Source of the DNA: Lacrimispora xylanolytica
Lineage (GTDB): Bacteria; Bacillota; Clostridia; Lachnospirales; Lachnospiraceae
Assembly (NCBI RefSeq): GCF_026723765.1
Contig: NZ_CP113524.1
Span: 3,643,001 to 3,707,000 of the forward strand
Reading direction: 5' to 3'
DNA: 64,000 nucleotides
A program made the position numbers and the translations under genes. Under the pieces are notes generated by a model. The model saw nothing but the letters and a program-made list of their open reading frames with translations, was not told the DNA's origin and did not search any database. Positions 2,586 to 15,041 of the stretch are shown in pieces. Each line of letters opens with the position of its first letter. Position 1 is the stretch's first letter.

Positions 2586-2846
2586 ATGCTTTCCCTTTCA
2601 TACCATGAATTAACATCACATTTAAGTGGGAACACATTGAAAAGTAAAAACATTCCATCCATTGAAATACACCATTCAGATACCATGGATTTTGAAGCTC
2701 TCTCAGATAAAATAAATGAATTCTATCTTGACTTCATAGAACGAAGGTTAAGAGATTCTGATTTAAGTACAGATGAAAAAATAGCTATTATTGATATCAT
2801 AAAAAAGCAGCTAAAATTACGGGACTCAAATGGGATCACCAAATAG
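2586..2846 (+). CDS. Unrecognised 86-aa ORF at the third feoB break
   Basis: I do not recognise this protein. It is acidic, helix-rich and more protein-like in its second half, from about residue 34 ([17 protein letters not shown]) to the end. The ribosome site is poor: AGGAC lies only a base from the ATG. It points toward the feoB junction and stops about 20-30 bases short of it, the same placement and direction the recombinases have in elements 1 and 2. It may be an accessory protein of element 3, a remnant of a longer gene, or a chance ORF. Confidence 0.3.
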
Positions 2847-2874
2847 TTTCCCTTTGTATGGTTGTGGAAATCTG

Positions 2875-2988
2875 CCGTTGCAGGGTACAAAATTGTTGGT
2901 TATCATGGCAATGAGGCGTTCCCTTGGGGAATCAATGATCCGACAGCCAACAATCCCTGCTGCATTGCACCCAAAGCCCATGCACATG
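2875..2988 (-). pseudogene. feoB: feoB fragment C (residues about 502-537 of the restored protein)
   Basis: On the minus strand this stretch reads [20 protein letters not shown], then [20 protein letters not shown]. These are among the most conserved segments of the FeoB membrane domain. It continues exactly, in frame, from fragment B (which ends in ALTM) once element 2 is removed with one copy of the CACATG repeat. No start codon or ribosome site belongs to it here. It ends at a third break after CNGRFP, where family members normally continue with TLI. The plus-strand ORFs across this stretch are shadows of it. Confidence 0.88.
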
Positions 2989-3005
2989 TCAGCAGAAATT
3001 TATGC
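2983..3005. repeat. Left attachment site of element 2
   Basis: The core CACATG (2983-2988) is followed by T and then the arm CAGCAGAAATTTATGC (2990-3005). The arm is an imperfect inverted copy of 7888-7903 at the other end. The recombinase gene stops 17 bases inside the arm. Confidence 0.75.
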
Positions 3006-3021
3006 CACGAAATTTTTTTTA

Positions 3022-4605
3022 TTATGATCCTTCTTTTATTGGAGACTCTGATTTGAAAGAAATTCGTATCGTCTGAGAACCGTTTGTAGTCCTTTCGTAC
3101 ACTTCTATTTTTTCTATGAATGCATTTAGAAGCTGTGATGTCATTTCCTGTTCGCCAGTAACTTCTTTTAACAAATGGTCAAGCTCCTGTTCCCCCTGCT
3201 CTCCCTGGTGTTGTAATGCAGTCCCTTGTTCTGTCTTTTTTAGCTTACACTCAATTCCCTCCTGCTCCTGCTCCAAAGAGGAAAGCAAATGGTAAAATCG
3301 CTCCTCTGTGATTTTCTCATTTACCTTATCCACGTAAAGCTGACTTATGATGCGGTCAATTTCTCTGTAACGCTTTTTTAATATATCCAAAGCCCTGGCA
3401 GGTTCCTTCTGACGGCAGAGGTTTCCTGTTTTCTTTAGGGCATTGTAAAGCTCTTCCTTTCTTTTTTCTGTTAAATCCAGAAGTGCTTCTATTTCCTCGG
3501 CTACCACCTCATATAGGGTTTCATAACTGATTTTATGACTGGTGCATTCCTTTTTTCCATATTGCTTATAACCGCTGCATACCAGCTCATGGTGATTTGG
3601 CCTTTTACTATTTCCTGTAACAGACATATTTCTTTGACAGTCTCTACAAATGACAAGACCAGAGAAGATATTGTGAAACTCGGATTCCTCATGTTTTTTT
3701 CTGGGAACGCTGCGTCTGCTTACCTGGTCAAATATTTCCTGAGTTATTATAGCATCGTGTTTATTCTTTACCACGACCCACTCTTTTCTTGGCTGGGATA
3801 GGGTCATATGGCTTTTAAAAGATAGTTTTACCGTTTTTCCCTGAACGATATGGCCTAAGTAGACTTCATTGGAAAGCATCTTACAGATGGTTCCAGAGGT
3901 CCATTTGGAATCGTTGGAGGCTTCGTCCTGCTTTAAATGAGGATGAGTCATAAAACGGTACTGGAGAGGGGTCTCCACCTTTCGTTCATTTAGGCTATCT
4001 GCAATCTGATAAGGAGATTCTCCGTTTTCTGCCCGTAAAAATATTTCTCGGACCAGTGGAGCTGTTTCCGGGTCAATAATAAGATGATTTTTATCGTTGG
4101 GATCTTTTCTATAGCCATAGGGCGCGAAATTCCCAATGAATGCCCCCTCTTTTATCTTGGTCTGAAATGCGCTCCGAATCTTTTTTGACGTATCTCTGGC
4201 ATACATTTCATTGACCATGTTTTTAAATGGCGCGATGTCATTAAAGGGACAGTCGGAATCATAGCCATCGTTGATCGCTATGTAACGAACCTTTTTTGAT
4301 GGAAAGTAAAGTTCCGTATATTGTCCGGTCATGATATAATCTCTTCCCAAGCGGGATAAGTCCTTTGTAATGACCAGGTTTACTTCTTTTGCTTCAATAT
4401 CTTTAAGAAGCCGCTCCCATGCGGGTCGGTTAAAATTCGTACCGGAGTAGCCGTCATCTATATATTCATCGTATACTTCAAATCCATGTTCTTTTGCATA
4501 AGCACGAAGCATCTTTCTTTGGGTGCTGATGCTGGCGCTTTCCAAAACCCTATCATCATCCTTTGAGAGCCTCATATAGAGGGCTGTATGATATTGGGCT
4601 GTCAT
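3022..4605 (-). CDS. Large serine recombinase of element 2
   Basis: This 527-aa site-specific recombinase would integrate and excise element 2. The resolvase catalytic domain covers about residues 1-150, with Y10-x-R12-x-S14 supplying the nucleophilic serine and ITKDLSRLGRDY as the core helix region. The Recombinase domain runs to about residue 300. A zinc-ribbon follows (CRDCQRNM and a CSGYKQYGKKEC pair), then a coiled-coil stretch rich in E and K and a C-terminal strand segment. This is the TnpX/TndX/SpoIVCA style of clostridial enzymes. The ATG overlaps the stop of a 47-aa upstream ORF in an ATGA junction, so translation is coupled. The gene reads outward and ends 33 bases from the element boundary. 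No frameshift or lost catalytic residue is seen, so it should be active. Confidence 0.95.
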   Translation of the reverse strand: MTAQYHTALYMRLSKDDDRVLESASISTQRKMLRAYAKEHGFEVYDEYIDDGYSGTNFNRPAWERLLKDIEAKEVNLVITKDLSRLGRDYIMTGQYTELYFPSKKVRYIAINDGYDSDCPFNDIAPFKNMVNEMYARDTSKKIRSAFQTKIKEGAFIGNFAPYGYRKDPNDKNHLIIDPETAPLVREIFLRAENGESPYQIADSLNERKVETPLQYRFMTHPHLKQDEASNDSKWTSGTICKMLSNEVYLGHIVQGKTVKLSFKSHMTLSQPRKEWVVVKNKHDAIITQEIFDQVSRRSVPRKKHEESEFHNIFSGLVICRDCQRNMSVTGNSKRPNHHELVCSGYKQYGKKECTSHKISYETLYEVVAEEIEALLDLTEKRKEELYNALKKTGNLCRQKEPARALDILKKRYREIDRIISQLYVDKVNEKITEERFYHLLSSLEQEQEGIECKLKKTEQGTALQHQGEQGEQELDHLLKEVTGEQEMTSQLLNAFIEKIEVYERTTNGSQTIRISFKSESPIKEGS

Positions 4606-4745
4606 GGGATAAGTCCCCCCGTTTCCCTGCGCTTTTTTATCAGCTCTATTACCAGCTCCTGTGGTGTCTTGTTTCCCACATAAATTCGTTCCACTTTAAC
4701 TTCTGTACGCCTGTATTTATGTGATGACGTGTTTTCTGAATTCAT
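4602..4745 (-). CDS. 47-aa ORF translationally coupled to the element 2 recombinase
   Basis: A small basic protein starts with MNSENTSSHKYRRTEVK and ends RRETGGLIP. It has a strong CAGGAGG ribosome site eight bases before its ATG. Its TGA overlaps the recombinase ATG in ATGA, so the two are made together. I do not recognise a domain; the middle (VERIYVGNKTPQELVIELI) looks like a short strand-helix unit. Element 1 carries another small ORF of 49 aa (12409-12558) with the same habit. Large serine recombinases often depend on a small directionality factor for excision, and this is a candidate for that role, but the function is inferred only from position. Confidence 0.7.
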   Translation of the reverse strand: MNSENTSSHKYRRTEVKVERIYVGNKTPQELVIELIKKRRETGGLIP

Positions 4746-4853
4746 CCAAAACACCTCCTGAAAAATCTTATTCCAGGGTGCTTGTACGATATACGTTTCA
4801 ACACTTCAGGAGAGATGCAAATGGAAACCCTCTTATCATGTCAGTATTAAAAC

Positions 4854-4884
4854 GGCCACTTCAGCAAATTACACTGAAGTGGCC
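4854..4884. terminator. Hairpin after the VanW gene
   Basis: GGCCACTTCAG (4854-4864) pairs perfectly with CTGAAGTGGCC (4874-4884). It lies 16 bases beyond the VanW stop and upstream of the recombinase operon on the same strand. It separates the cargo operon from the recombinase. Confidence 0.7.
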
Positions 4885-4900
4885 TTCTATTATATCTTTA

Positions 4901-6415
4901 TTATTGATTTTCCTGAGCTTCCGTTAACGCAGCACCTGGCCCATGAGGTATTTCGGTTGTCTCAGGCTGAGTTTCTGGTTGTGTCTCTGGTGCGTGAGTA
5001 GTCTCCGGAACGGTTTCTTCCACTTTATGAGTGGTATTTCTCTGTATCACTGCAGGTTTTCCCTTATACGTACTGTTATGAAGAGGCTCTTCCTTAATGA
5101 CGGTATCTCCCTTTTTAAATACGCGGAAGCTACGGTATACGCCTCCAAGACTTCCCTGATCTACAATCTTTTCTGTTCCAAAGGGAAGAGCTATATTTTC
5201 CTCATAGGTAGGAGGTAATGGAGCTGAATCCCGGACCTTCTCAGAACGGATGGTGACCTTTTGTCCATCTTCAAGGAATGGAATCCCTACTACGGAAATT
5301 TTAAGCTTCTTTCCTTCCAGGGAAGCACGGACAACTACAGAGTTCTTACTGGTGTTTTTAAACTTTAAATCCGGTCCTGCATATCCGTCAAAGCTGACCA
5401 TGGCATCCTGTCCCTTTTCTACATAGGAAGGAGCAAAGCTATGGGAATTACGCTCCGTGGTCTTAAATCCACTTTCAATAATGGCGTGGTAAAGAGTGGT
5501 GGATACCTGGCAAACGCCGCCGCCTGGTTCCTCAATCAGGATTCCATTACGGTATGCGCCGGCTGGCTGATATCCTTTTTCTTTTGTTCGGTTTCCAGTG
5601 GTGTTGTTAAAGGAAAACTCTTCTCCTGGCTTTAAGACCACACCGTTAATGGCGTCCACTGCCAGACTGATATTTTTATTCCTGTTTTTATTATCCGTTG
5701 TGGTCGTGGTAAAGGTACCAATCACTTTATAGAGCTCCTTTGCCTGTGCTTCGCTCCGGTCCGGAGGTGTCTGGGCAAACTCTGCCTTTACTTCGGCCTG
5801 GTAATTATCGGCTTTGACGGCATCCATTAGCTGTTCAACAAGCTTTGCCTGATCTAAGGTTCTGCCGTTCTTTCCAGGTGTATACTGATATGCCCCTGTT
5901 TCCTTATTAAAGGATTCCAGCTGGGCACCCATAGGACTTTGATTCCATTTATTTGCAAGCTCCTCAGCCTGTTTTGTAAATGGCTCTTTCATTGCCTCAT
6001 AATCAATCTCATACTCCTGGGTCTCTTCCGGAGAAGTTTCCTCCAGCTTCTTTTTAATTGCCTTAATCTGGCTGTCGATTAAATTATCCAGTAAAACAGA
6101 ATCCCCATCTGCACTTACCGTCAGCTCCCACTGATAGCGCTCGTCAATGGTGTCTTCTGCTTCTTCTATGGTCAACCCGGATAAGTTGGTATTTCCTATT
6201 CGGGCGGATTTCAATTTTTTTCTTAAATCCAGCACCTGTTCACTCGTCCCCGGCTTTGTCTCTTCTGTATGACTGCCGGAACCAGTCTGGCTTCCCTTGC
6301 TTACATTGGTATAAAGCAGCCAGACCGCTGACAGGGCTGTTAATATTACAACACCATAACCGATGCTTCTGTTTCTTCTTCTAGCCCGATTTCTTCTTGC
6401 CCTGTTTTTATCCAT
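4901..6415 (-). CDS. VanW-family membrane-anchored protein
   Basis: This is a 504-aa cell-envelope protein of the VanW family. A very basic N-terminus (residues 1-16, rich in R and N) precedes one membrane anchor at about 18-38, so most of the protein is outside the cell. An alpha/beta region (about 60-220, including NLSGLTIEEAEDTI) resembles the putative peptidoglycan-binding domain found before VanW domains. The VanW domain follows at about 230-370 with GVVLKPGEEFSFNN and EEPGGGVCQVSTTLYHA. The tail has a G5-like segment and a Thr/Pro/Glu-rich end. The exact function of VanW proteins is unknown. Four bases separate it from the CcdA-TlpA stop upstream, so the two form an operon within element 2. 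Confidence 0.9.
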   Translation of the reverse strand: MDKNRARRNRARRRNRSIGYGVVILTALSAVWLLYTNVSKGSQTGSGSHTEETKPGTSEQVLDLRKKLKSARIGNTNLSGLTIEEAEDTIDERYQWELTVSADGDSVLLDNLIDSQIKAIKKKLEETSPEETQEYEIDYEAMKEPFTKQAEELANKWNQSPMGAQLESFNKETGAYQYTPGKNGRTLDQAKLVEQLMDAVKADNYQAEVKAEFAQTPPDRSEAQAKELYKVIGTFTTTTTDNKNRNKNISLAVDAINGVVLKPGEEFSFNNTTGNRTKEKGYQPAGAYRNGILIEEPGGGVCQVSTTLYHAIIESGFKTTERNSHSFAPSYVEKGQDAMVSFDGYAGPDLKFKNTSKNSVVVRASLEGKKLKISVVGIPFLEDGQKVTIRSEKVRDSAPLPPTYEENIALPFGTEKIVDQGSLGGVYRSFRVFKKGDTVIKEEPLHNSTYKGKPAVIQRNTTHKVEETVPETTHAPETQPETQPETTEIPHGPGAALTEAQENQ

Positions 6416-6419
6416 ATAG

Positions 6420-7736
6420 TTAATCTCTCTCTCCTTTCAAGGTCTGGTTGATGATGCTTTGCATCATATCTTTCGATAATTGCCCGCTGGCATAGCCAAA
6501 TACATTTCCATCACGATCTATCATATAGGTGGTTGGGAAAGAGTATATGCCATAGGCTTCAAATAATTCAGCATTGGTATCCATTAACACAGGATACGTA
6601 TAACCATTTTTTTCAAGAAATTCCTTAATCACCTGTTCATCTTTTTCTCTTCCATAATTAGGAGCAGCAACTCCTAATATGATTACCCCATTCTCTCCTT
6701 CTGTTTCCTGAGTCTCATAGAGGCTTTGGATATCCGGCATCTCTGCACGGCACGGCGGGCACCAGGTAGCCCAGAAATTAAGAAAAATTGTTTTCCCTTT
6801 ATAATCAGAAAGGGAATGTGTCTTCCCAAACTGGTCTTTTAATGTAAAATCAATGGCTGGAAGCGGCTTGTCTTCTTCGCTCTCTCCGTCACTTACAGAT
6901 GTACTGGTTTCATTGGCAGAGGAAGTTGTTTCCTCAACCGTTGTCTCTCTTTCCTTAGATTCCCTACTCTTCGTCGTTTCCTTTTCACTGGAAATGGAAG
7001 GAGCCTGAAAGGATGACAGGTAGCCGGTCAATGCATTCATTTTTCCGGTAAACATTAGAATACCCATTAATATCATGAGAATGCCGCCTGCTTTAACAGC
7101 ACTCTTTGTCACATGCTTGTGAGTCTTAAAAAACTCCAGCACTGTGGTGGTAAAAAAGCCTACTGCTAAAAATGGAAGAACAAAACCTAAGGTATAGACT
7201 CCAATGAGGACAAAACCAAGGGATTTTGTAGACGCAGATGCCGCCATAATGAGAACGCTTGCAAGAGCAGGACCTACACAGGGCGTCCACGCAAAGCTGA
7301 AGGTAAAGCCCATCAAAAGAGCGGTAAATGGGGACATGGCTAACTTGTCAAAGGATAGGGAAAGTCTTCTGTCCTTCTCAAGCATAGAGGAGGTTCCAAG
7401 AATTCCTGTCTGATAAAGACCAAAGAAGAAAACAATGATTCCCCCAACTCTGGCAAATAAAAGCTGGTTGGATTTAAAAAAGTTTCCAAGAGCTGAAACA
7501 CCAAGTCCCAGCAAAAAGAAAGTAAAGCTGATTCCAATTACAAAACATACGGTGTGAACCATGACCTTTTTCCGGTCATATTCCGTTCTTCCATCCTCTT
7601 TTGCGATTCCGGTTCCTCCGGATAAATACCCAATGTAAAGAGGAATCAGAGGTAGAACACAGGGAGAGAAAAAGCTTACGATTCCCTGTAAGAATACAGT
7701 CAGAACAGGGACGCTCACATCAATTGAAAAACCCAA
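6420..7736 (-). CDS. CcdA-type membrane thiol transporter fused to a TlpA-like thioredoxin
   Basis: This redox protein carries reducing power across the membrane and delivers it to an external thioredoxin domain. The N-terminal part (about residues 1-240) has six or so membrane segments with the CcdA motifs FFSPCVLPLIPLYIGYLSGG and AWTPCVGPALAS, which hold the paired cysteines. A Ser/Thr/Glu-rich linker follows (about 245-285). The C-terminal TlpA/ResA-like domain has the WCPPC active site and the cis-proline in YSFPTTYMID. I place the start at a TTG (7736) preceded by AAGGAGG with good spacing. An ATG 15 codons upstream has no ribosome site. It is first in a two-gene operon with the VanW gene and is cargo of element 2. 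This fusion is known in Firmicutes; what it reduces here is unknown. Confidence 0.9.
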   Translation of the reverse strand: MGFSIDVSVPVLTVFLQGIVSFFSPCVLPLIPLYIGYLSGGTGIAKEDGRTEYDRKKVMVHTVCFVIGISFTFFLLGLGVSALGNFFKSNQLLFARVGGIIVFFFGLYQTGILGTSSMLEKDRRLSLSFDKLAMSPFTALLMGFTFSFAWTPCVGPALASVLIMAASASTKSLGFVLIGVYTLGFVLPFLAVGFFTTTVLEFFKTHKHVTKSAVKAGGILMILMGILMFTGKMNALTGYLSSFQAPSISSEKETTKSRESKERETTVEETTSSANETSTSVSDGESEEDKPLPAIDFTLKDQFGKTHSLSDYKGKTIFLNFWATWCPPCRAEMPDIQSLYETQETEGENGVIILGVAAPNYGREKDEQVIKEFLEKNGYTYPVLMDTNAELFEAYGIYSFPTTYMIDRDGNVFGYASGQLSKDMMQSIINQTLKGERD

Positions 7737-7887
7737 CCAAGTACCTCCTTTTTTACCTGCCGCAGCCAGTCGACTGGACATTTTCCATTATTTTCTGTAC
7801 TATTTTTAGTTACAGTTTGATGTTGTAACTATACCATTTTGAGGAAATTGTGTCAAGTGAATAATGGCTCCTTTTCTATATGAAAAA

Positions 7888-7910
7888 GCATAGATTTCCT
7901 CTGTCACATG
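7888..7910. repeat. Right attachment site of element 2
   Basis: The arm GCATAGATTTCCTCTG (7888-7903) is followed by T and the core CACATG (7905-7910). The core then runs straight into feoB codons for ALT. It is the inverted partner of 2983-3005. Confidence 0.75.
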
Positions 7911-9256
7911 GTAAGCGCCTGCTTCCCACAAGCGGAGCATCGCTTAAAGCAGCGATCCAGGTTAAACGCCACTCTGGGCAGGTATCCAAAATCTTCCAGA
8001 AGGGTAAACAACGGAAAAAAGATTGCCATTGGCGGAAGCATTACAGATACGACCCAGGCAAGACTGCGGTACATGCCATGGACCAGAAGATTGGAAATAA
8101 GTTCCGGAACGCCTGCCCATGCTGCTCCTTTTGAAAGGAGGTCTTCAAACCCAAACAAAACATTGCTAAGAAGCTGGGAGGGATAATTGGCCCCGGTAAT
8201 GGTCAGCCAAAAAATCCCAAGAAGAACCAGAAACATAATGGGAAAGCCGGTGGACTTGCTGGTAAATATAAAATCCAGCTTCCGATCTTTCCTGTTATAG
8301 GTCTGATTCTCATATATTACGACTCCGCGACATAAATATTCTGCCTTCTTAACGAATACGGAAGCCATATCATCGCTTACTTTTTCCTGGTGGATTCCTC
8401 TGGCTCTCCACTCGCTTCGGATTTTCTCTAAACACTCTGCCACTTCCCCGGATTCAGCAACAGAGCTTACATACTTTTTAACCGCCTGCATAAGATTATC
8501 AATGGAATCTAATAATCTGGCACATAGCCAGCGGATGTTTATCTTACCATCGGAAGCATTCTCCACCACAGGGGAAAGGGCTTCAATGGCATCCTCAATA
8601 TATTGAGGATAACGGATTAGTACTGGGCGTTTTTCTTTTTCCTTCGAATTTTGTATCGGTTCTTCCGGGAATGCTTCTACGTCTTCGATTGCGTCTGCAA
8701 GTTCAATTCCTTCTGCTATTTTAGATTCTTGCGGTTTCTCTGACTCCTCTGATTTGTCTGTAGTTTCCTCTATCCCTTTTTCAAGCGTCTCTTCTAATTT
8801 TACCTCGTCTATAAAGTCCACGTTTGCGTCTTCTATCTTATCTTCTTCCTCAAGGCAGCGTCTTAAACAGGTATATATCTGGTCCAGCCCCTTTTTACTT
8901 CTGGCCGCAGTTCCTGCCACAGGTACACCCAGCCGCTCTTCCAGTAAATCAAGCCGGATATCAATCCTCTTTTTCTTCGCTTCATCCATGAGATTTACAC
9001 AGACGACGGCCTTAGGCGTGGCCTCCAGAACCTGTAACACCAGATTTAAATTACGTTCCAGACAGGTTGCGTCACAGACCACCACTACCCCATCCGGATG
9101 TTCAAAACAGATAAAATCCCTTGCTACCTCCTCTTCCGTGGAGTGGGCCATGAGGGAATAGCAGCCTGGTATGTCTACCATAACATATCCCTGGCTGCCA
9201 TCACTGCAATAGCCCTGGGCATTGGCAACGGTTTTACCCGGCCAGTTGCCCGTGTG
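7905..9256 (-). pseudogene. feoB: feoB fragment B (residues about 52-501 of the restored protein)
   Basis: FeoB is the membrane transporter for ferrous iron with a cytosolic GTPase domain. This fragment begins at switch I (HTGNWPGKT, 9256 leftward) with a stop codon directly upstream, and ends with FKRCSACGKQALTM before TGA. It holds the G3 motif (VDIPG), G4 (NLMD), G5 (GTAARSKKG), a long acidic linker, the helical GDI region and the first membrane segments (FLVLLGIFWLTITG onward, LFTLLEDFGYLPR). The P-loop lies in fragment A, 5.1 kb away, and the rest of the membrane domain is in fragment C and beyond. Translation starting at the internal ATG at 9181 would give a GTPase without its P-loop, so it is non-functional as it stands. 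Excision of elements 1 and 2 restores the frame. Confidence 0.93.
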
Positions 9257-9276
9257 TTACATGTGTTAGAGGTAAA
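9248..9276. repeat. Left attachment site of element 1
   Basis: The core GCCCGTGTG (9248-9256) is followed by seven bases and the arm TGTTAGAGGTAAA (9264-9276). The arm matches the inverted arm at the right end without mismatch. Confidence 0.8.
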
Positions 9277-9549
9277 CGAGTCACGATATTAAAAATTAGA
9301 AACCGAAATTGTGATGGAAGTTTGCTTAATCTGTGTTTTTTCTGTGAATTTTTTGTGAATTCAGACACACTTTTTACATTTATCTTTTTTTAATATTTAA
9401 TTCACATTTTATTAAGAAAAAAGCAACTAATGCCCCATTGATTCTGTTATATTCTGGTGCTAAAATAACTTTTGACTTCAGAAAAATAAGATAACTGAAG
9501 GTCAGAACATATTGATGATACCAATACAGTCTTGAGGAGGAAATTTATT

Positions 9550-9891
9550 ATGAAGTTAACAACAAAGAAATTATTTTTGACAGGTGTAGCAATTTTGACA
9601 ATGGCAGCTATCTCTGCTTGTGGTAGCACCAAAACTTCAGAAACAACCGCTGCTACAAAAGCCGATATTACCACAGAAGCAGTTACAACTGAGGCTGCTA
9701 CAAAAGAAGCTGCTACAACTGAAGCTACTACAAAAGAAGCGAAAGAAAGCACTTCTGCTGCAGAGTCCAAGAAAGATGAGACCAAGAAGGAAAGCACTGC
9801 AACAAAAGAAACAAAAACAGATGAGAGCAAAGTAAAAGCAGGCTCTTCCGATGAAAAACCAGCAGCTGCAACTGAAACTAAGAAAAAATAA
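9550..9891 (+). CDS. Small Thr/Ala/Lys/Glu-rich lipoprotein
   Basis: This is a 113-aa predicted lipoprotein. Residues 1-24 form a signal peptide ending in the lipobox AISAC, so the mature protein is lipid-anchored outside the membrane. The rest is low complexity. It is built from repeated TTEA/TKEA units (EAVTTEAATKEAATTEATTKEA with small variations) and then a Lys/Glu/Ser-rich tail ending KKK, with no folded domain visible. I place the start at 9550, which has GAGGAGGAAA upstream; an ATG-less extension of six codons precedes it. About 290 AT-rich bases separate it from the element boundary, where I see promoter-like sequence but no further gene. It is probably an envelope spacer or a lineage-specific protein; function unknown. 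Confidence 0.75.
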   Translation: MKLTTKKLFLTGVAILTMAAISACGSTKTSETTAATKADITTEAVTTEAATKEAATTEATTKEAKESTSAAESKKDETKKESTATKETKTDESKVKAGSSDEKPAAATETKKK

Positions 9892-9960
9892 AATTAAAAA
9901 TACCAAAACAGTCGATGTAAAAACTCAGAACTTTTAGTTAAACAGATTTGGACAAGTTTG

Positions 9961-10008
9961 GACCTGTTGAAAAAGTGACATAAACCACTTTTATCAACAG
10001 GTCAATTT
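9961..10008 (+). terminator. Hairpin terminator after the small lipoprotein gene
   Basis: GACCTGTTGAAAAAGTG pairs with CACTTTTATCAACAGGTC, with one bulge, and is followed by AATTTT. It also lies between two convergent genes, so it may serve both strands. Confidence 0.7.
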
Positions 10009-10018
10009 TCAAAACTAT

Positions 10019-10381
10019 CTAGTCCCGCCAAAGATCAGAATAATAGGTTATCACACTTTCATCACAATAATCAGGAATGCCAGAGGTATGATTGAGTAAT
10101 TGCTCCACAGTTATCATTGAATCTATATGATTTAGGTCAAAATCAAGCAAATCACCAATGGTATCTTGAAAGCTTAATCTTCCTTCTTCAATCAGCTTAA
10201 GAATTGCTACAGCAAAAAAGACCTTACCTGCAGAGGCAGTCGCAAACTTGGTATCAAAGATATTAAACACCTTATTTGAATAATCGGAATATCCTTAAGC
10301 CTGTTCAAATATGGTACATCCCTTCTTATTAATCGAGATACAACCTTGAAAGTCTTTTAATTCATTTTTAAGATAAACCAC
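10019..10381 (-). pseudogene. Decayed beta-lactamase-family serine hydrolase (truncated copy)
   Basis: This is a degenerate copy of the intact gene at 11369-12367. Read from a GTG at 10381 it starts VVYLKNELKDFQGCISI, keeps the SxxK site (TASAGKVFF) and the NHTSGIPDY segment, and stops at SDLWRD. The equivalent of the C-terminal two thirds is missing. An in-frame TAA interrupts it at EQA-stop-GYSD, where the intact copy has Phe. The GTG overlaps the stop of the GyrI-like ORF upstream. With an internal stop and most of the domain lost, it cannot encode an active enzyme. Confidence 0.85.
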
Positions 10382-10911
10382 TATTTCTCCTTAAATTTAA
10401 TAGGAACAAAATTTTCCATCTGTGCAAATCCCTGGGCTTTTATAATTTCAGATGGTGTAATAATATGTCCCATGATATAATGCCCCGGACGTATGTCCAG
10501 TTCGAATACATCTGAGTTTTCAATATAAGAGATTGCCTCCTTGTATCTTTTTCCACTCATTTCATCATCCCCATCCACGTAGACATAGGTTAAATAATAT
10601 CCACCATCAAAAGATATCACTTCATTTCCACCATCATCCATATCTTCTGTAAGTGCCCACGCCCATACCAGCCCACTCTTTTCTTCATCATAATATAAGA
10701 AATCTCTGGGCATAAAAGAATCTCTATCTGATACTTGAATTGCTGAAAAGTATGCATCAAACTTTCCTAAAATACTATCATTCGAAAAGTCGCACACGTT
10801 GTCTACGCCTGATGACGCAGCACGAAATGGGGGTAATGAGATGACTCTAAACTGGGTTTGATCTACTCCTGTTAAATATGATTCCACTCGCTTGTCCCTC
10901 CTAACCGGCAA
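10381..10911 (-). CDS. GyrI-like small-molecule-binding domain protein, probably a chimeric fragment
   Basis: This 176-aa ORF carries a GyrI-like/AraC effector-binding domain, the ligand-sensing module often found at the C-terminus of MerR and AraC regulators. Recognisable parts are FRVISLPPFRAASSGVD near the start, SGLVWAWALTE and the terminal RPGHYIMGHIITPSE. No DNA-binding domain is present. The ORF begins at a TTG in the position where the 49-aa ORF of the neighbouring copy ends, and its first 15 residues (MPVRRDKRVESYLTG) are not part of the domain. A ribosome-site-like AGGAGTAGA shared with the intact copy lies just before the domain. It therefore looks like a piece inserted between that site and the beta-lactamase start. 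It may be expressed, but it may equally be debris. Confidence 0.6.
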   Translation of the reverse strand: MPVRRDKRVESYLTGVDQTQFRVISLPPFRAASSGVDNVCDFSNDSILGKFDAYFSAIQVSDRDSFMPRDFLYYDEEKSGLVWAWALTEDMDDGGNEVISFDGGYYLTYVYVDGDDEMSGKRYKEAISYIENSDVFELDIRPGHYIMGHIITPSEIIKAQGFAQMENFVPIKFKEK

Positions 10912-11059
10912 CAGCCGGTCTCTTCCTTGTTTTCTTTGCTCCTTTTTTAAGGCTCTTTAAAGTGATCTCCACCCCTTCTTTATCCCCTATGATTTTTGCC
11001 AGAGCTTACAAAGCCTTTACCGGATCAACACAATTGTTAACATGAACCGTGTCTGCCAT
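10911..11059 (-). pseudogene. Decayed copy of the 49-aa ORF
   Basis: It is closely similar to 12409-12558. It starts MADTVHVNNCVDPVKAL, then has a stop where the intact copy has Glu, and a one-base deletion before the end. The homology continues upstream into the promoter region to about 11120, through the shared TTTGTACTTCTTTCC stretch on the plus strand. Confidence 0.75.
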
Positions 11060-11368
11060 AACACTGCTCCTTACTAAATTATAAGTATATACTGTAGTTT
11101 GTACTTCTTTCCTTATTCTACATTAGACAGGATATATAATTAGAAGAAAAGCAAATTAAAACATGGTATGGTGCACGAAAAAAACTAAGAATATTATATC
11201 ATATGGCCTATTTTCATACAACTATCCCTATGATAATCTCTTTAATCTTAAGTCATCTATTGCCTTTATTTACTGTTATTTTCAGCTTAACACTTGCACT
11301 ATCTGGCCCTTAGAGTTATTCAATTTAGATAAGCAAGAGCAAGTACGTTTCTATCAAAATCCTGGTGC
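11060..11368. other. AT-rich spacer between the two cassette copies
   Basis: Apart from the conserved upstream stretch of the left copy (to about 11120), I see no gene, repeat or strong hairpin here. The plus-strand ORF that crosses it and enters the beta-lactamase gene has no ribosome site or recognisable protein. Confidence 0.5.
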
Positions 11369-12367
11369 TTATATAAAATCCTGCCATTTTAGTTCTCGCT
11401 TCAGTTTCCAAACATTATTGCCAAAATTACTTACTAAAGTGATGAGCACCTCTTCCTCTCGGTCGTAACTGGATATAAAACTTACACCAGGATCACAGCC
11501 CTCAATGTAGGGTACATAATACCCTTCCATTTTCTTTAACCATATTCCATATCCATAATGCTCATTTTCAAAGTTGGTGCTTTGAAGACGAAACATTTTG
11601 TTTGTCATCTCTTCCGATAACAGCTTATATCCAAGCAGACTATTCCAAAATAATTCAATATCACCTATCGTAGTGTACGCACCACCTGCGCCTGTCCCCT
11701 TAACATCAACGCTATATATATTCGTATAGTACTCTTCCTTCACCTGATCATATAAATAGGCATTGGCGCATCCAGCCGGAAGGCGGTCAAGCTCATAATA
11801 GCCGGTGTGCTCCATATTTCCTGGTTTAAAAATGACATCTGCCAGATATGAATCAAAAGGTACTTTTGTAATGCTTTCTATAATAAGGCCTAACATTACA
11901 TAGCCGGAGTTATTATATTGAAACTTCTCTCCCCTCTCATACATCATGGGCTTATTGATAAATAAGGGCAGGAGATCCCTGGAGGTGCGTATCTTATAAT
12001 TGGGATAATCCCCCCATAGATCCGAATATTCCTCCATAATGCTTTCATCATAATAATCCGGAATTCCAGAGGTATGATTGAGCAGCTGCTCTACCGTTAC
12101 GAGAGGGTCTATGTGGTTTAACTCAAAATCAAGTAATTCTCCCATGGTATCCTCAAAATTCAGCCTTCCCTCTTCTATGAGTTTAAGAATTCCAACGGCA
12201 ACAAAAACCTTTCCTGCGGAAGCTGTTCCAAATCTGGTATCTAAGGTATTTGAAATCTGATTGGAAAGATCCGAATATCCAAACGCCTGCTCAAATACCG
12301 TGCCGCCCTTTCGTTTGATAGAGATACAGCCTTGAAAATCTTTTAGTGTTTCTTTCCATTGATTCAT
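11369..12367 (-). CDS. Beta-lactamase-family (class C-like) serine hydrolase
   Basis: This 332-aa protein is of the serine beta-lactamase-like/penicillin-binding superfamily (Pfam Beta-lactamase). The nucleophile motif is S50-A-G-K53 and the second motif is YNN (QYNNSGYVMLG, about residue 150). NHTSGIPDYYD around residue 115 is typical of the esterase/D-aminopeptidase-like branch. No signal peptide is present, so it is probably cytoplasmic and not a resistance beta-lactamase. The ATG at 12367 has AGGAGTAGAC directly upstream. It is 41 bases downstream of the 49-aa ORF and cargo of element 1. A decayed duplicate lies at 10019-10381. The substrate cannot be read from the sequence. Confidence 0.85.
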   Translation of the reverse strand: MNQWKETLKDFQGCISIKRKGGTVFEQAFGYSDLSNQISNTLDTRFGTASAGKVFVAVGILKLIEEGRLNFEDTMGELLDFELNHIDPLVTVEQLLNHTSGIPDYYDESIMEEYSDLWGDYPNYKIRTSRDLLPLFINKPMMYERGEKFQYNNSGYVMLGLIIESITKVPFDSYLADVIFKPGNMEHTGYYELDRLPAGCANAYLYDQVKEEYYTNIYSVDVKGTGAGGAYTTIGDIELFWNSLLGYKLLSEEMTNKMFRLQSTNFENEHYGYGIWLKKMEGYYVPYIEGCDPGVSFISSYDREEEVLITLVSNFGNNVWKLKRELKWQDFI

Positions 12368-12408
12368 GTCTACTCCTATCAGCCTTAGCTTGTCTTATGC
12401 TACCGGCA

Positions 12409-12558
12409 TCAGCCGGTTTCTCCTTCGTTTTCTTCTTCTCGTTTCTTTAAGCTTTTTAAAGTAATTTCAACCCCTTCTTTTTCCCCTATGATCTTTGCCA
12501 GAGCCTCAAAAGCCTTTACCGGATCTACAGAATTCACTGCATGAACTGTATCCGCCAT
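12409..12558 (-). CDS. 49-aa ORF of the recombinase-associated type (intact copy)
   Basis: A small protein starts MADTVHAVNSVDPVKAFEAL and ends EEENEGETG, with a GGGGCG ribosome site. It is highly charged and likely helical. Its TGA overlaps an ATG (TGATG) that begins a four-codon reading frame, MPVA-stop. In many clostridial serine-recombinase operons a small ORF is coupled in this way to a recombinase beginning MPVR. The GyrI-like ORF of the decayed copy indeed starts MPVRRDK. I therefore read it as a leftover from a recombinase operon whose recombinase was replaced by a beta-lactamase-family gene. Whether it acts with the recombinase at 12937 is unknown. Confidence 0.65.
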   Translation of the reverse strand: MADTVHAVNSVDPVKAFEALAKIIGEKEGVEITLKSLKKREEENEGETG

Positions 12559-12936
12559 GATATCGCCCCTTTCTAACCCATATGTATTCCATGTGGTTTG
12601 TACTTCTTTCCTCTTCCTTATTTAAGTAGAAAATGGAATACACAAGAACGATAGGCTAAAAATATGAAATTACGATTAATCTAATGTAATCTTATCATAT
12701 CACTTTTACTTCTACAACTGCATGACTATCATAACAAATGCCAGAGGCTATCGGACCTGGAAGGACACCTGGTTCTAAATGCCATTAAAATAGCTCCGGA
12801 GTCACTGAACCATAGATTTAGATTCGCTGATACGATATTTTAATTCTCTGCCCCCCTATAAAAAGGAATCTCCATTATAGGGGTATTTGTTATTTTTATC
12901 CCCCACCTCTCGTAGACTGTACAGGGAGATGATGCG
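12559..12936. other. Intergenic region with a gene remnant ahead of the element 1 recombinase
   Basis: The left part holds the divergent promoter of the 49-aa ORF. From 12685 to 12843 the plus strand has an open frame without a start codon, including EGHLVLNAIKIAPESLNHRF and ending in TAA, which reads like the 3' end of a lost gene. A terminator hairpin follows nine bases later. I do not recognise the protein. The recombinase ribosome site (GGGAGATGATGCG) lies at the right edge. Confidence 0.35.
12853..12897 (+). terminator. Rho-independent terminator upstream of the element 1 recombinase
   Basis: CCCCTATAA (12853-12861) pairs with TTATAGGGG (12875-12883), followed by TATTTGTTATTTTT. It sits about 40 bases before the recombinase start. 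It may be the old terminator of the gene remnant just upstream, and would limit read-through into the recombinase. Confidence 0.7.
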
Positions 12937-14334
12937 ATGAAAAAAACTTCAGAACCAGAGCGGCCAATTCGCGTAGCAGTTTATATCCGGGTATCCTCTG
13001 AAGAACAGGCCGAGCGGGGAGATTCCATCAGAGACCAGAAGGAACGGGGAATCCGGTATATTAAGGAACACACCAATATGGTCTTACAGGATATTTATCT
13101 GGACGATGGTGTATCCGGTCAGAAAATTGACCGGGACGATTTTACACGTTTGATGAACCGTGTAAAAGAAGGACAAATTGACTTAATCATATTTACAAAG
13201 CTGGATCGTTGGTTTCGTAGCCTTCGCCATTATTTAAACACCCAGGCAGTCCTGGAAAAATATAACGCAGCATGGACTGCTATCGACCAGCCATACTTTG
13301 ATACTTCCACCCCTTACGGCAGAGCCTTTGTGGCCCAATCCATGACCTGGGCCGAGCTGGAAGCTCAAAACGGCGGAATTCGTGTTTCGGATGTATTTAA
13401 GACTAAGGTAGAGCACGGAGAAGTGATTACAGGAAAAGTCCCAAGAGGATACCAGATCATGAATAAACGTATGATACTTTCTGAGGAGGCCCCTGCTATT
13501 TATGATGGAATCATGCATTTTTTAAAACACCACTCCATGAACCAGTCGGTCCAATATTTAAAGGACAAATATGGAATCTGCATGACGCCCCAAAACTTCC
13601 GCCAGTCTCTTCTTCGAAACGAGAAATTGACAGGGCGTTACCGCGGCAATGAAACTTACTGTCCCCGCCTCCTATCCGATGAGGATTTCAATAAAATCCA
13701 ACATATTTTAGACCAGAACCATAACATTAAGTCCAGTCAGAAATACCCCTATCTATTTTCCGGCCTTGTAATATGCAGGGAATGTGAAAGCAAAATGGGC
13801 GGCTGCCAGATTAATGTTCTTTCCAAACGAAAAGACGGAACAACCATTCGATATAAATATCCTGCATATGAATGCAAGCAGTCTCATACAAAAAAAGCAT
13901 GCTTAAATCATGGAGAAATTAGGGAAACACGATTGGAAGAATACTTATTAAATTATGTTCGGACAGAATTTAATTCCTACATTGCCAGTTTTCAGGCCAA
14001 GGAAAAACAGACCGCTGATCATAGAATGGAAAAAAAACAGATATGCAAGAAACTGGAGAGACTGAAAGATCTTTACCTAAATGAAGCAATCACCCTGGAG
14101 GAATTTAAAAAGGAAAAGGCCAGACTGGAAGAATACCTATCCTCTCTAACCAGCCCTCCTCCCACAACGCAAGACCTTGAATCATTAAAAAGCATTCTAA
14201 GTGCAGGCTTTGAGACCATGTACTCAAAGCTGAATCACGAACAGAAGCGGCGCTTTTGGCGCTCTATTATAAAGGAAATTAAAATCAGTAAAAGCTCTTT
14301 GCGTCACAGGGAGTATACCGTTGTTTTCTTATAA
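12937..14334 (+). CDS. Large serine recombinase of element 1
   Basis: This 465-aa site-specific recombinase would integrate and excise element 1. The catalytic resolvase domain covers about residues 10-160, with Y16-x-R18-x-S20 at its start and KLDRWFRSL in the core. The Recombinase domain follows (GKVPRGYQIMNKRM and LTGRYRGNE). A zinc ribbon has CRECESKMGG and CKQSHTKKAC at about 280-325. The C-terminal third is a Lys/Glu-rich coiled coil. It is shorter than, and clearly different from, the element 2 enzyme (527 aa), so the two elements are not copies of each other. It starts at an ATG with GGGAGATGATGCG upstream. It reads toward the right end of the element and stops 57 bases before the core repeat. 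All catalytic motifs are intact. Confidence 0.95.
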   Translation: MKKTSEPERPIRVAVYIRVSSEEQAERGDSIRDQKERGIRYIKEHTNMVLQDIYLDDGVSGQKIDRDDFTRLMNRVKEGQIDLIIFTKLDRWFRSLRHYLNTQAVLEKYNAAWTAIDQPYFDTSTPYGRAFVAQSMTWAELEAQNGGIRVSDVFKTKVEHGEVITGKVPRGYQIMNKRMILSEEAPAIYDGIMHFLKHHSMNQSVQYLKDKYGICMTPQNFRQSLLRNEKLTGRYRGNETYCPRLLSDEDFNKIQHILDQNHNIKSSQKYPYLFSGLVICRECESKMGGCQINVLSKRKDGTTIRYKYPAYECKQSHTKKACLNHGEIRETRLEEYLLNYVRTEFNSYIASFQAKEKQTADHRMEKKQICKKLERLKDLYLNEAITLEEFKKEKARLEEYLSSLTSPPPTTQDLESLKSILSAGFETMYSKLNHEQKRRFWRSIIKEIKISKSSLRHREYTVVFL

Positions 14335-14372
14335 AAATCAGTTGGGATCAGCCTTTTTCGTTGCAATATTAT

Positions 14373-14400
14373 TTTACCTCTAACAACACCAGCCCGTGTG
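14373..14400. repeat. Right attachment site of element 1
   Basis: The arm TTTACCTCTAACA (14373-14385), six spacer bases and the core GCCCGTGTG (14392-14400) join directly to feoB codons for MNQ. The arm is the exact inverse of 9264-9276. Confidence 0.8.
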
Positions 14401-14553
14401 CTGGTTCATCCCCGTAAGCTGATTAAACACCGTACTCTTCCCTACGTTGGGATTTCCAGCCAGTGCAATTACCTTATCACTATCCTTACGTTTCTTAATT
14501 TCAAGCCCCAGATCCACAGATTTGATACCAACAGAGTCTCTGCTTAATCCCAT
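14392..14553 (-). pseudogene. feoB: feoB fragment A (residues 1-54, with the P-loop)
   Basis: This is the true start of feoB. The ATG at 14553 has AGGAGG seven bases upstream and overlaps the feoA stop by ten bases, so it is translationally coupled to feoA. It encodes [16 protein letters not shown] and onward to the P-loop GNPNVGKS (residues 33-40), then [10 protein letters not shown]. After the element 1 junction the frame gives only WCC and a TAG stop. The present transcript would therefore make a roughly 57-aa peptide with half a GTPase fold. Joined at the direct repeat to fragment B it continues as NWPGKTVANAQGY, a perfect FeoB switch I. No other start for feoB is plausible. Confidence 0.93.
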
Positions 14554-14858
14554 GCATCTTCCTCCTGGGTGACCGCCGCTGCCGCCACTTCTTCTTCAAA
14601 ACGGCGTCTTCCCATATCCTCTTGTTCCAGGCGTACCAGCACCCGCCCTGCGTCTTCCCTTCGCAGGGCAATCACTGCACCTCTGATTAAGAATGCTGTA
14701 GGATCGCCCAACGGACTTTTTCCAAGGCACTCCACAACCGTGCCTTCAATCAGACCGATATCCTGCAGACGCCTTCTCATATCGTCGTAAGCAGACAGCT
14801 TAGCTATGACACCCCTTTGCCCTCTTTTTAAATCTGCCATACATGCCTTTTCCTTCAT
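14544..14858 (-). CDS. feoA: FeoA, SH3-like accessory protein of ferrous iron uptake
   Basis: This 104-aa protein of the FeoA family is a small SH3-like cytosolic partner of FeoB. The family pattern is seen in [51 protein letters not shown] and the terminal VRL region. The C-terminus is extended by an acidic/Ala-rich tail ([13 protein letters not shown]). The ATG at 14858 has GGAGG upstream. It overlaps the start of feoB by ten bases, so its normal partner is the gene interrupted by elements 1 and 2. It is divergent from a DtxR-type regulator, which probably controls it by iron. I see no unambiguous iron box in the 183-base gap. Confidence 0.92.
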
Positions 14859-15041
14859 CGTTTCTTACCTCCGCACTTCTTTTTTGAAACTTCCTGCAAT
14901 GTTTCCATATCCTAACATATGCAAAGAAAGAAAAACTGGTTCCAACGATTTTACCACGGTTTTTTCATGTCCCTGGATTCATACAACTGTCCCAAGGGGA
15001 ATAGATATGAACTATGATTATATCCCAAAGGAGACACCGGC

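Follow-up and report, generated by a model that had tools for sequence, protein, structure and literature searches.

The split feoB locus

The window, that is the whole 64,000-nucleotide stretch of Lacrimispora xylanolytica DNA analysed here (NZ_CP113524.1, positions 3,643,001 to 3,707,000), contains three of the four pieces of a ferrous iron transporter gene, feoB, which together span 24.6 kb in this genome. Three elements interrupt the gene, each at a different site and each carrying a large serine recombinase (LSR) of its own: both elements named in a preliminary description of the sequence (elements 1 and 2) are real, and a third was found besides. The feoB pieces were delimited by reading the flanks, and the locus comprises:

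14545-14858, minus strand: feoA
14392-14553, minus strand: feoB piece 1 (aa 1-54, Walker A)
7905-9256, minus strand: feoB piece 2 (aa 52-435)
2866-2988, minus strand: feoB piece 3 (aa 435-475)
G000:C1:3632955-3633707, outside the window: feoB piece 4 (aa 465-715)
9248-14400: element 1, about 5.1 kb, with the core CACACGGGC at both ends
12937-14334, plus strand: serine recombinase of element 1, 465 aa
12409-12558, minus strand: 49-aa ORF that is conserved next to the recombinase of element 1 and is a candidate for its small partner
2983-7910: element 2, including both copies of the CACATG/CATGTG core (2983-2988 and 7905-7910)
1-2870: the part of element 3 that lies in the window (LacI and sugar ABC genes)

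The reading frame is restored at all three joints (HTG/NWPG, ALTM/CMGFG and GRF/PTM), and identical joined sequences are found in Lacrimispora genomes in which site 1 or 3 is empty as well as in intact feoB paralogues. Element 2, which breaks feoB at codon 435, has the hallmarks of a gene-intervening element: it splits a chromosomal gene, carries its own recombinase, and its precise removal would restore the frame. Element 3 is about 12 kb long and holds sugar-uptake genes and a 545-aa recombinase adjoining feoB piece 4; this recombinase and piece 4 precede the window (G000:C1:3632955-3645870). An 86-aa ORF of element 3 (2586-2846, plus strand) lies antisense beside feoB piece 3 and is kept in other copies of the element. 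One genome (G019; L089 and L090) has two middle and two N-terminal feoB pieces, the pattern that a tandem duplication of element 1 with its flank would leave.

The C-halves of feoB behind element 2 show dN/dS values of 0.03-0.09, and likewise the last piece behind element 3. Such values behind one or two elements argue that feoB must be reassembled. It is not plausible that pieces of 54 and 40 codons function alone, and, judging from these sequences, reassembly must be frequent enough to be of consequence.

Element 2 and the small gene orf47

Element 2 contains the following features, the cargo genes being named by sequence inspection:

3022-4605, minus strand: LSR of element 2, 527 aa (Pfam)
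4602-4745, minus strand: orf47, 47-aa ORF, candidate directionality factor (RDF) of element 2 (from translation, conservation, pN/pS and HMM enrichment)
4752-4759, minus strand: ribosome site of orf47, AGGAGGTG
4901-6415, minus strand: VanW-like cargo gene
6420-7781, minus strand: CcdA/TlpA-like thioredoxin fusion, cargo
7880-7910, minus strand: attL, junction arm ATGTGACAGAGGAAATCTATGCTTTTT, from the sequence
2983-3015, minus strand: attR, junction arm, inverted repeat of the attL arm

The recombinase contains the Resolvase, Recombinase, Zn_ribbon_recom and DUF4368 domains of Pfam, and the serine of its RLS motif (S14) is invariant among the recombinases of alignment A1; the first three domains together with the N-terminal catalytic serine identify it as an LSR. 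Its closest relative with a solved domain is TnpX. No viral contigs carrying this recombinase were found and the best phage or plasmid records match at only 32-43%, so element 2 corresponds to no known phage. The CATGTG core is common to both junctions, and the inner arm ATGTGACAGARGAAATCTATGCTTTTT recurs on the other side as its inverted repeat, a short common core flanked by inverted repeats being typical of att sites; as a result, the excised circle would carry a palindromic attP, CTGTCA-TG-TGACAG. Predicted excision would release 4,922 bp and leave the feoB sequence ACCATGTGCATGG on the chromosome.

The preliminary description had pointed to a 47-aa ORF with a strong ribosome site and a four-base overlap with the recombinase gene, and both signals were borne out. 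The ribosome site lies 6 nt before the ATG and is conserved across the genus (of 21 copies checked, 20 have AGGAGGT); the stop of orf47 and the start of the 527-aa recombinase (4605, minus strand) overlap in ATGA, a junction kept in 11 of the same 21 copies. The translation of 4602-4745 on the minus strand reads MNSENTSSHKYRRTEVKVERIYVGNKTPQELVIELIKKRRETGGLIP up to the stop, and the small protein is encoded in the recombinase's own element, as befits an RDF. Absence of the ORF beside close homologues of the recombinase, which had been named as evidence that would count against it, was looked for; a homologue is in fact present within element 2 in all 23 Lacrimispora genomes that have the element. 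It adjoins the recombinase in 16 of them and is separated from it by 2-10 kb of cargo in the other seven (G005, G006, G008, G009, G018, G020 and G021); in the separated cases examined, an extra copy of the promoter and a truncated start of the small ORF stand ahead of the recombinase. At four loci (L035, L040, L043 and L039) genes for DNA-alkylation repair (ada, alkA and ogt by sequence inspection) lie between the two, inside the feoB element of one Lacrimispora clade.

Substitutions in orf47 are protein-like: pooling seven independent pairs gives a pN/pS of 0.21 (Fisher p 1.6e-19), which indicates purifying selection at the protein level. Comparison of these sequences confirms that orf47 is a real and conserved gene, present far beyond chance.

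In the pattern shared by its family, an extended segment (YxVExxF) comes before a helix (TxxELLxELLxK). When an HMM built from Lacrimispora only was searched against 17,942 short ORFs from other loci, 13 of the top 20 matches lay directly upstream of a recombinase (p 1e-22), and with an HMM of the feoB-site family (A2) run on non-feoB loci 16 of the top 20 lay just upstream of LSRs (p ~1e-29). This enrichment places orf47 in a family tied to clostridial LSRs. At three feoB-site loci (L121, L135 and L167) the family HMM recovered no small ORF directly upstream of the recombinase; candidate ORFs are nonetheless present in that position at L121 and L135. Searches of Pfam, NCBIfam and PHROGs with orf47 gave no match, and its AlphaFold model, whose pTM of 0.40 is too low to base a fold search on, contains a sole confident helix preceded by an extended segment.

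The orf47/recombinase pair resembles TnpW/TnpX of Tn4451-like elements, in which a small ORF also stands just upstream of a related clostridial LSR. The strand-helix patterns of TnpW and orf47 are in register, but no member of the orf47 family that was tested scores against PF14202, the Pfam model of TnpW: membership of TnpW was considered and dropped, as neither orf47 nor its relatives tested reach the curated cut-off, PF14202 has no match in the own genome, and hhalign of the family against it gives an E of 0.018 with a probability of 2.6%. Kinship of TnpW and orf47 is thus unproven despite their same position before LSRs.

The feoB site in other genomes and putative sporulation-type promoters

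Of 25 Lacrimispora genomes, 23 have the element 2 recombinase (at least ~53% identity where intact), always at this one site in feoB; in two genomes (G017 and G024) it looks broken. The exceptions are G010, which is 67% complete, and G011, whose feoB genes are an intact 59% paralogue and otherwise distant paralogues only. Intact feoB paralogues of 59-62% occur at G003:C144, G004:C51 and G011:C79, two of these genomes having the split gene too. No excised form was seen among the genomes examined, the integrated state being found in all. In 16 Lacrimispora genomes the protein distances of the recombinase, the small ORF and feoB correlate (r 0.86-0.95), which fits an element that has long been resident and is inherited vertically.

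Beyond the genus, named genomes were scanned and gave ~23 further loci with feoB broken at codon 435, in Lachnospirales, Oscillospirales and Christensenellales (orders according to the record titles), and the small-ORF/recombinase pair sits with different cargo at the identical site in Anaeromicropila and ~22 other clostridial loci. The expected conservation of the pair therefore holds beyond the genus, the small ORF preceding most recombinases at this site in other genera. The element of Anaeromicropila populeti has the reverse orientation and other cargo but the same feoB joint; its attP arms differ from those of element 2 (CAACCATACA-TG-TGGATAGTTG) and the TG centre is the same. The opposite orientation, with the recombinase beside the N-half, also occurs at L106/L128, L124, L126, L130, L132 and L141, although the central TG is not palindromic.

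Two promoter-like motifs suggest a link of the locus to sporulation:

14913-14940, minus strand: perfect sigma-K consensus, AC-N17-CATATGTTA, upstream of feoA
4765-4792, minus strand: sigma-E/K-like motif, ATA-N17-AATAAGAT, before orf47, with TACAAG in the spacer

The feoA motif is conserved in 11 of 11 Lacrimispora checked, with a spacer that varies among them, and is matched in 3 of 11 other lineages (4 of 12 with that of the window, 0.10 being expected). In Clostridioides difficile, feoA-feoB belongs to the sigma-K regulon, with expression 0.05-fold in a sigK mutant (PMC3789822). Ahead of the small ORF, nine of 20 lineages have ATA-N17-[CA]ATAnnnT, where 0.40 would be expected, the exact pattern being absent from the other 11. 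Published sigma-E promoters read ATA-N16-CATATATA with a spacing of 16-18 (PMC3789822), and in the own genome the spacer is 15 nt in the putative promoters of spoIVA and spoIIIAA versus 17 nt before orf47; elsewhere in this genome the orf47 motif was not found at 3 mismatches. What points to control of orf47/recombinase and of feoB by sporulation sigma factors is thus motif evidence only. Among genomes that carry the element, 20 of 23 have SpoIVA, a weak excess over the family as a whole (103 of 150). A sigma-E-like GGATA-N17-CATATGCAT seen by eye before the element 3 recombinase was discarded: it is absent from the scan output and from relatives.

The proposed role of orf47 and its alternatives

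The only small gene seen in common between element 2 and the same-site elements of other genera is orf47, which makes it the prime RDF candidate of the element. From the sequences and by analogy with known systems, we consider it probable that orf47 and the recombinase form the core module of a sporulation-type gene-intervening element in feoB, with orf47 as the RDF. The excision of element 2, its timing and the role of orf47 are what we infer, and the following course may be suggested: (i) during sporulation, the sigma-E-like promoter would direct synthesis of the orf47 protein in the mother cell, and translational coupling would yield the recombinase; (ii) as an RDF, the small protein would turn the recombinase towards attL x attR; (iii) cutting at the TG centre of CATGTG would free a 4.9-kb circle and join ...GKQALTM to CMGFGCN..., so that feoB reads through; (iv) like events at elements 1 and 3 would rebuild the whole gene, which sigma-K would then transcribe from the feoA promoter. 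Excision would take place in the terminal mother cell while the split copy of feoB stays in the spore.

The small protein could also assist the recombinase in some other way, as a stabiliser, an operon repressor or a limiter of its dose, with the recombinase alone sufficing for excision. We regard this as rather unlikely. It is true that TnpX-type LSRs are reported to work alone, TnpX excising without an RDF, that orf47 occupies the position of TnpW, which to our knowledge is not known to be needed for TnpX, and that the model of orf47 offers a single confident helix after an extended segment. However, the small ORF stays intact away from the recombinase in seven genomes, the arms of attP and attB differ as in LSRs whose excision depends on an RDF, and gin, skinCd and SPbeta each have a small RDF that is proven. 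A random or iron-driven switch that gives FeoB to a subpopulation (phase variation), unconnected with sporulation, appears more doubtful still: the selection data require excision whatever its timing and are compatible with it, but the conserved sigma-K consensus at feoA, the sigma-E-like motif at the small ORF, the predominance of spore formers among the carriers, the sigma-K dependence of feoAB in C. difficile and the fact that none of the 23 genomes was caught in the excised state all speak against it.

The selection data lead us to reject two other readings. On the first of them, selfish elements simply prefer to integrate in feoB, which is itself dead and survives as relics. This is very improbable: distant intact paralogues do occur in nearly all genomes of the genus, yet constraint persists in the parts behind one or two elements, no stops are found, the joints are in frame at all three sites, and a single element has been inherited vertically rather than scattered ones acquired. 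Hardly credible at all is the view that orf47 is translated only to lead ribosomes on to the recombinase and that its product has no function. The ATGA overlap and the shortness of orf47 would suit it, but not the protein-level selection, the homology across genera or the retention of the small ORF far from the recombinase, where it is uncoupled.

As a gene-intervening element with an LSR and a small RDF, element 2 is of a known kind. The gin element in gerE of Bacillus cereus is likewise non-phage, splits a mother-cell gene with an in-frame joint (PMC5595907), and combines an LSR and a tiny partner with a short core and inverted repeats; experiments established GirX (42 aa), which can be likened to orf47 by length and proposed role, as the RDF for GirC, both being needed for excision, while GirC alone integrates and GirX blocks integration (PMC5595907). 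In gerE, one element has three recombinases, whereas here three elements lie in one gene, that of a transporter, and the orf47/recombinase pair is conserved across many genera. The skinCd element in sigK of C. difficile, where CD1234 (72 aa) is the proven RDF for recombinase CD1231 (PMC5025042), shares with element 2 an LSR and, if the proposal holds, a small RDF under sigma-E control and use in the mother cell; it differs in its target, in an RDF that is longer, acidic and apart from the recombinase, and in the constitutive expression of the latter. The yin element in yabG of Clostridium botulinum splits a gene under sigma-K, as proposed for feoB, and has a predicted 53-aa RDF, but is prophage-like and reported as unique to one strain (PMC10747680).

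What is new is feoB as a target, three elements in one gene, one site fixed genus-wide and across families, and a family of LSR partner ORFs that can be searched for. We found no link between feoB and serine recombinase excision in the open-access literature, and we know of no earlier gene-intervening system in a metal transporter. If the proposal is true, a ferrous iron transporter gene split in up to four pieces by three independent elements would be reassembled in the mother cell, as if iron, or a related metal, were required there late in sporulation.

The small size of RDFs and their mutual dissimilarity make them difficult to recognise, and a conserved position combined with a sequence profile would reveal those of many clostridial recombinases, enzymes in demand for genome engineering. 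It is plausible, though no more likely than not, that the role of orf47 extends to the widespread family of 31-60-aa ORFs directly upstream of clostridial LSRs, for which Pfam has no model: these may be the directionality factors of their recombinases and drive mother-cell-specific reassembly of feoB in spore-forming clostridia. The directionality function first suggested for orf47 itself stands only in part, because the activity is deduced and the ORF belongs to element 2 only: the pairing with the element 2 recombinase is conserved, and elements 1 and 3 have other small neighbours. The 49-aa ORF (MADTVHAVNSVDPVKAFEALAKII...) also adjoins the element 1 recombinase in other Lacrimispora (L089, L095, L103, L111-L114 and L137), and a second, stop-broken copy lies in the window at 10943-11059 (minus strand). 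In several Lacrimispora (L098, L096 and L094) a ribbon-helix-helix-like ORF of 50-odd aa stands upstream of the element 3 recombinase and is coupled to it; the window's own genome (L092) has lost this ORF.
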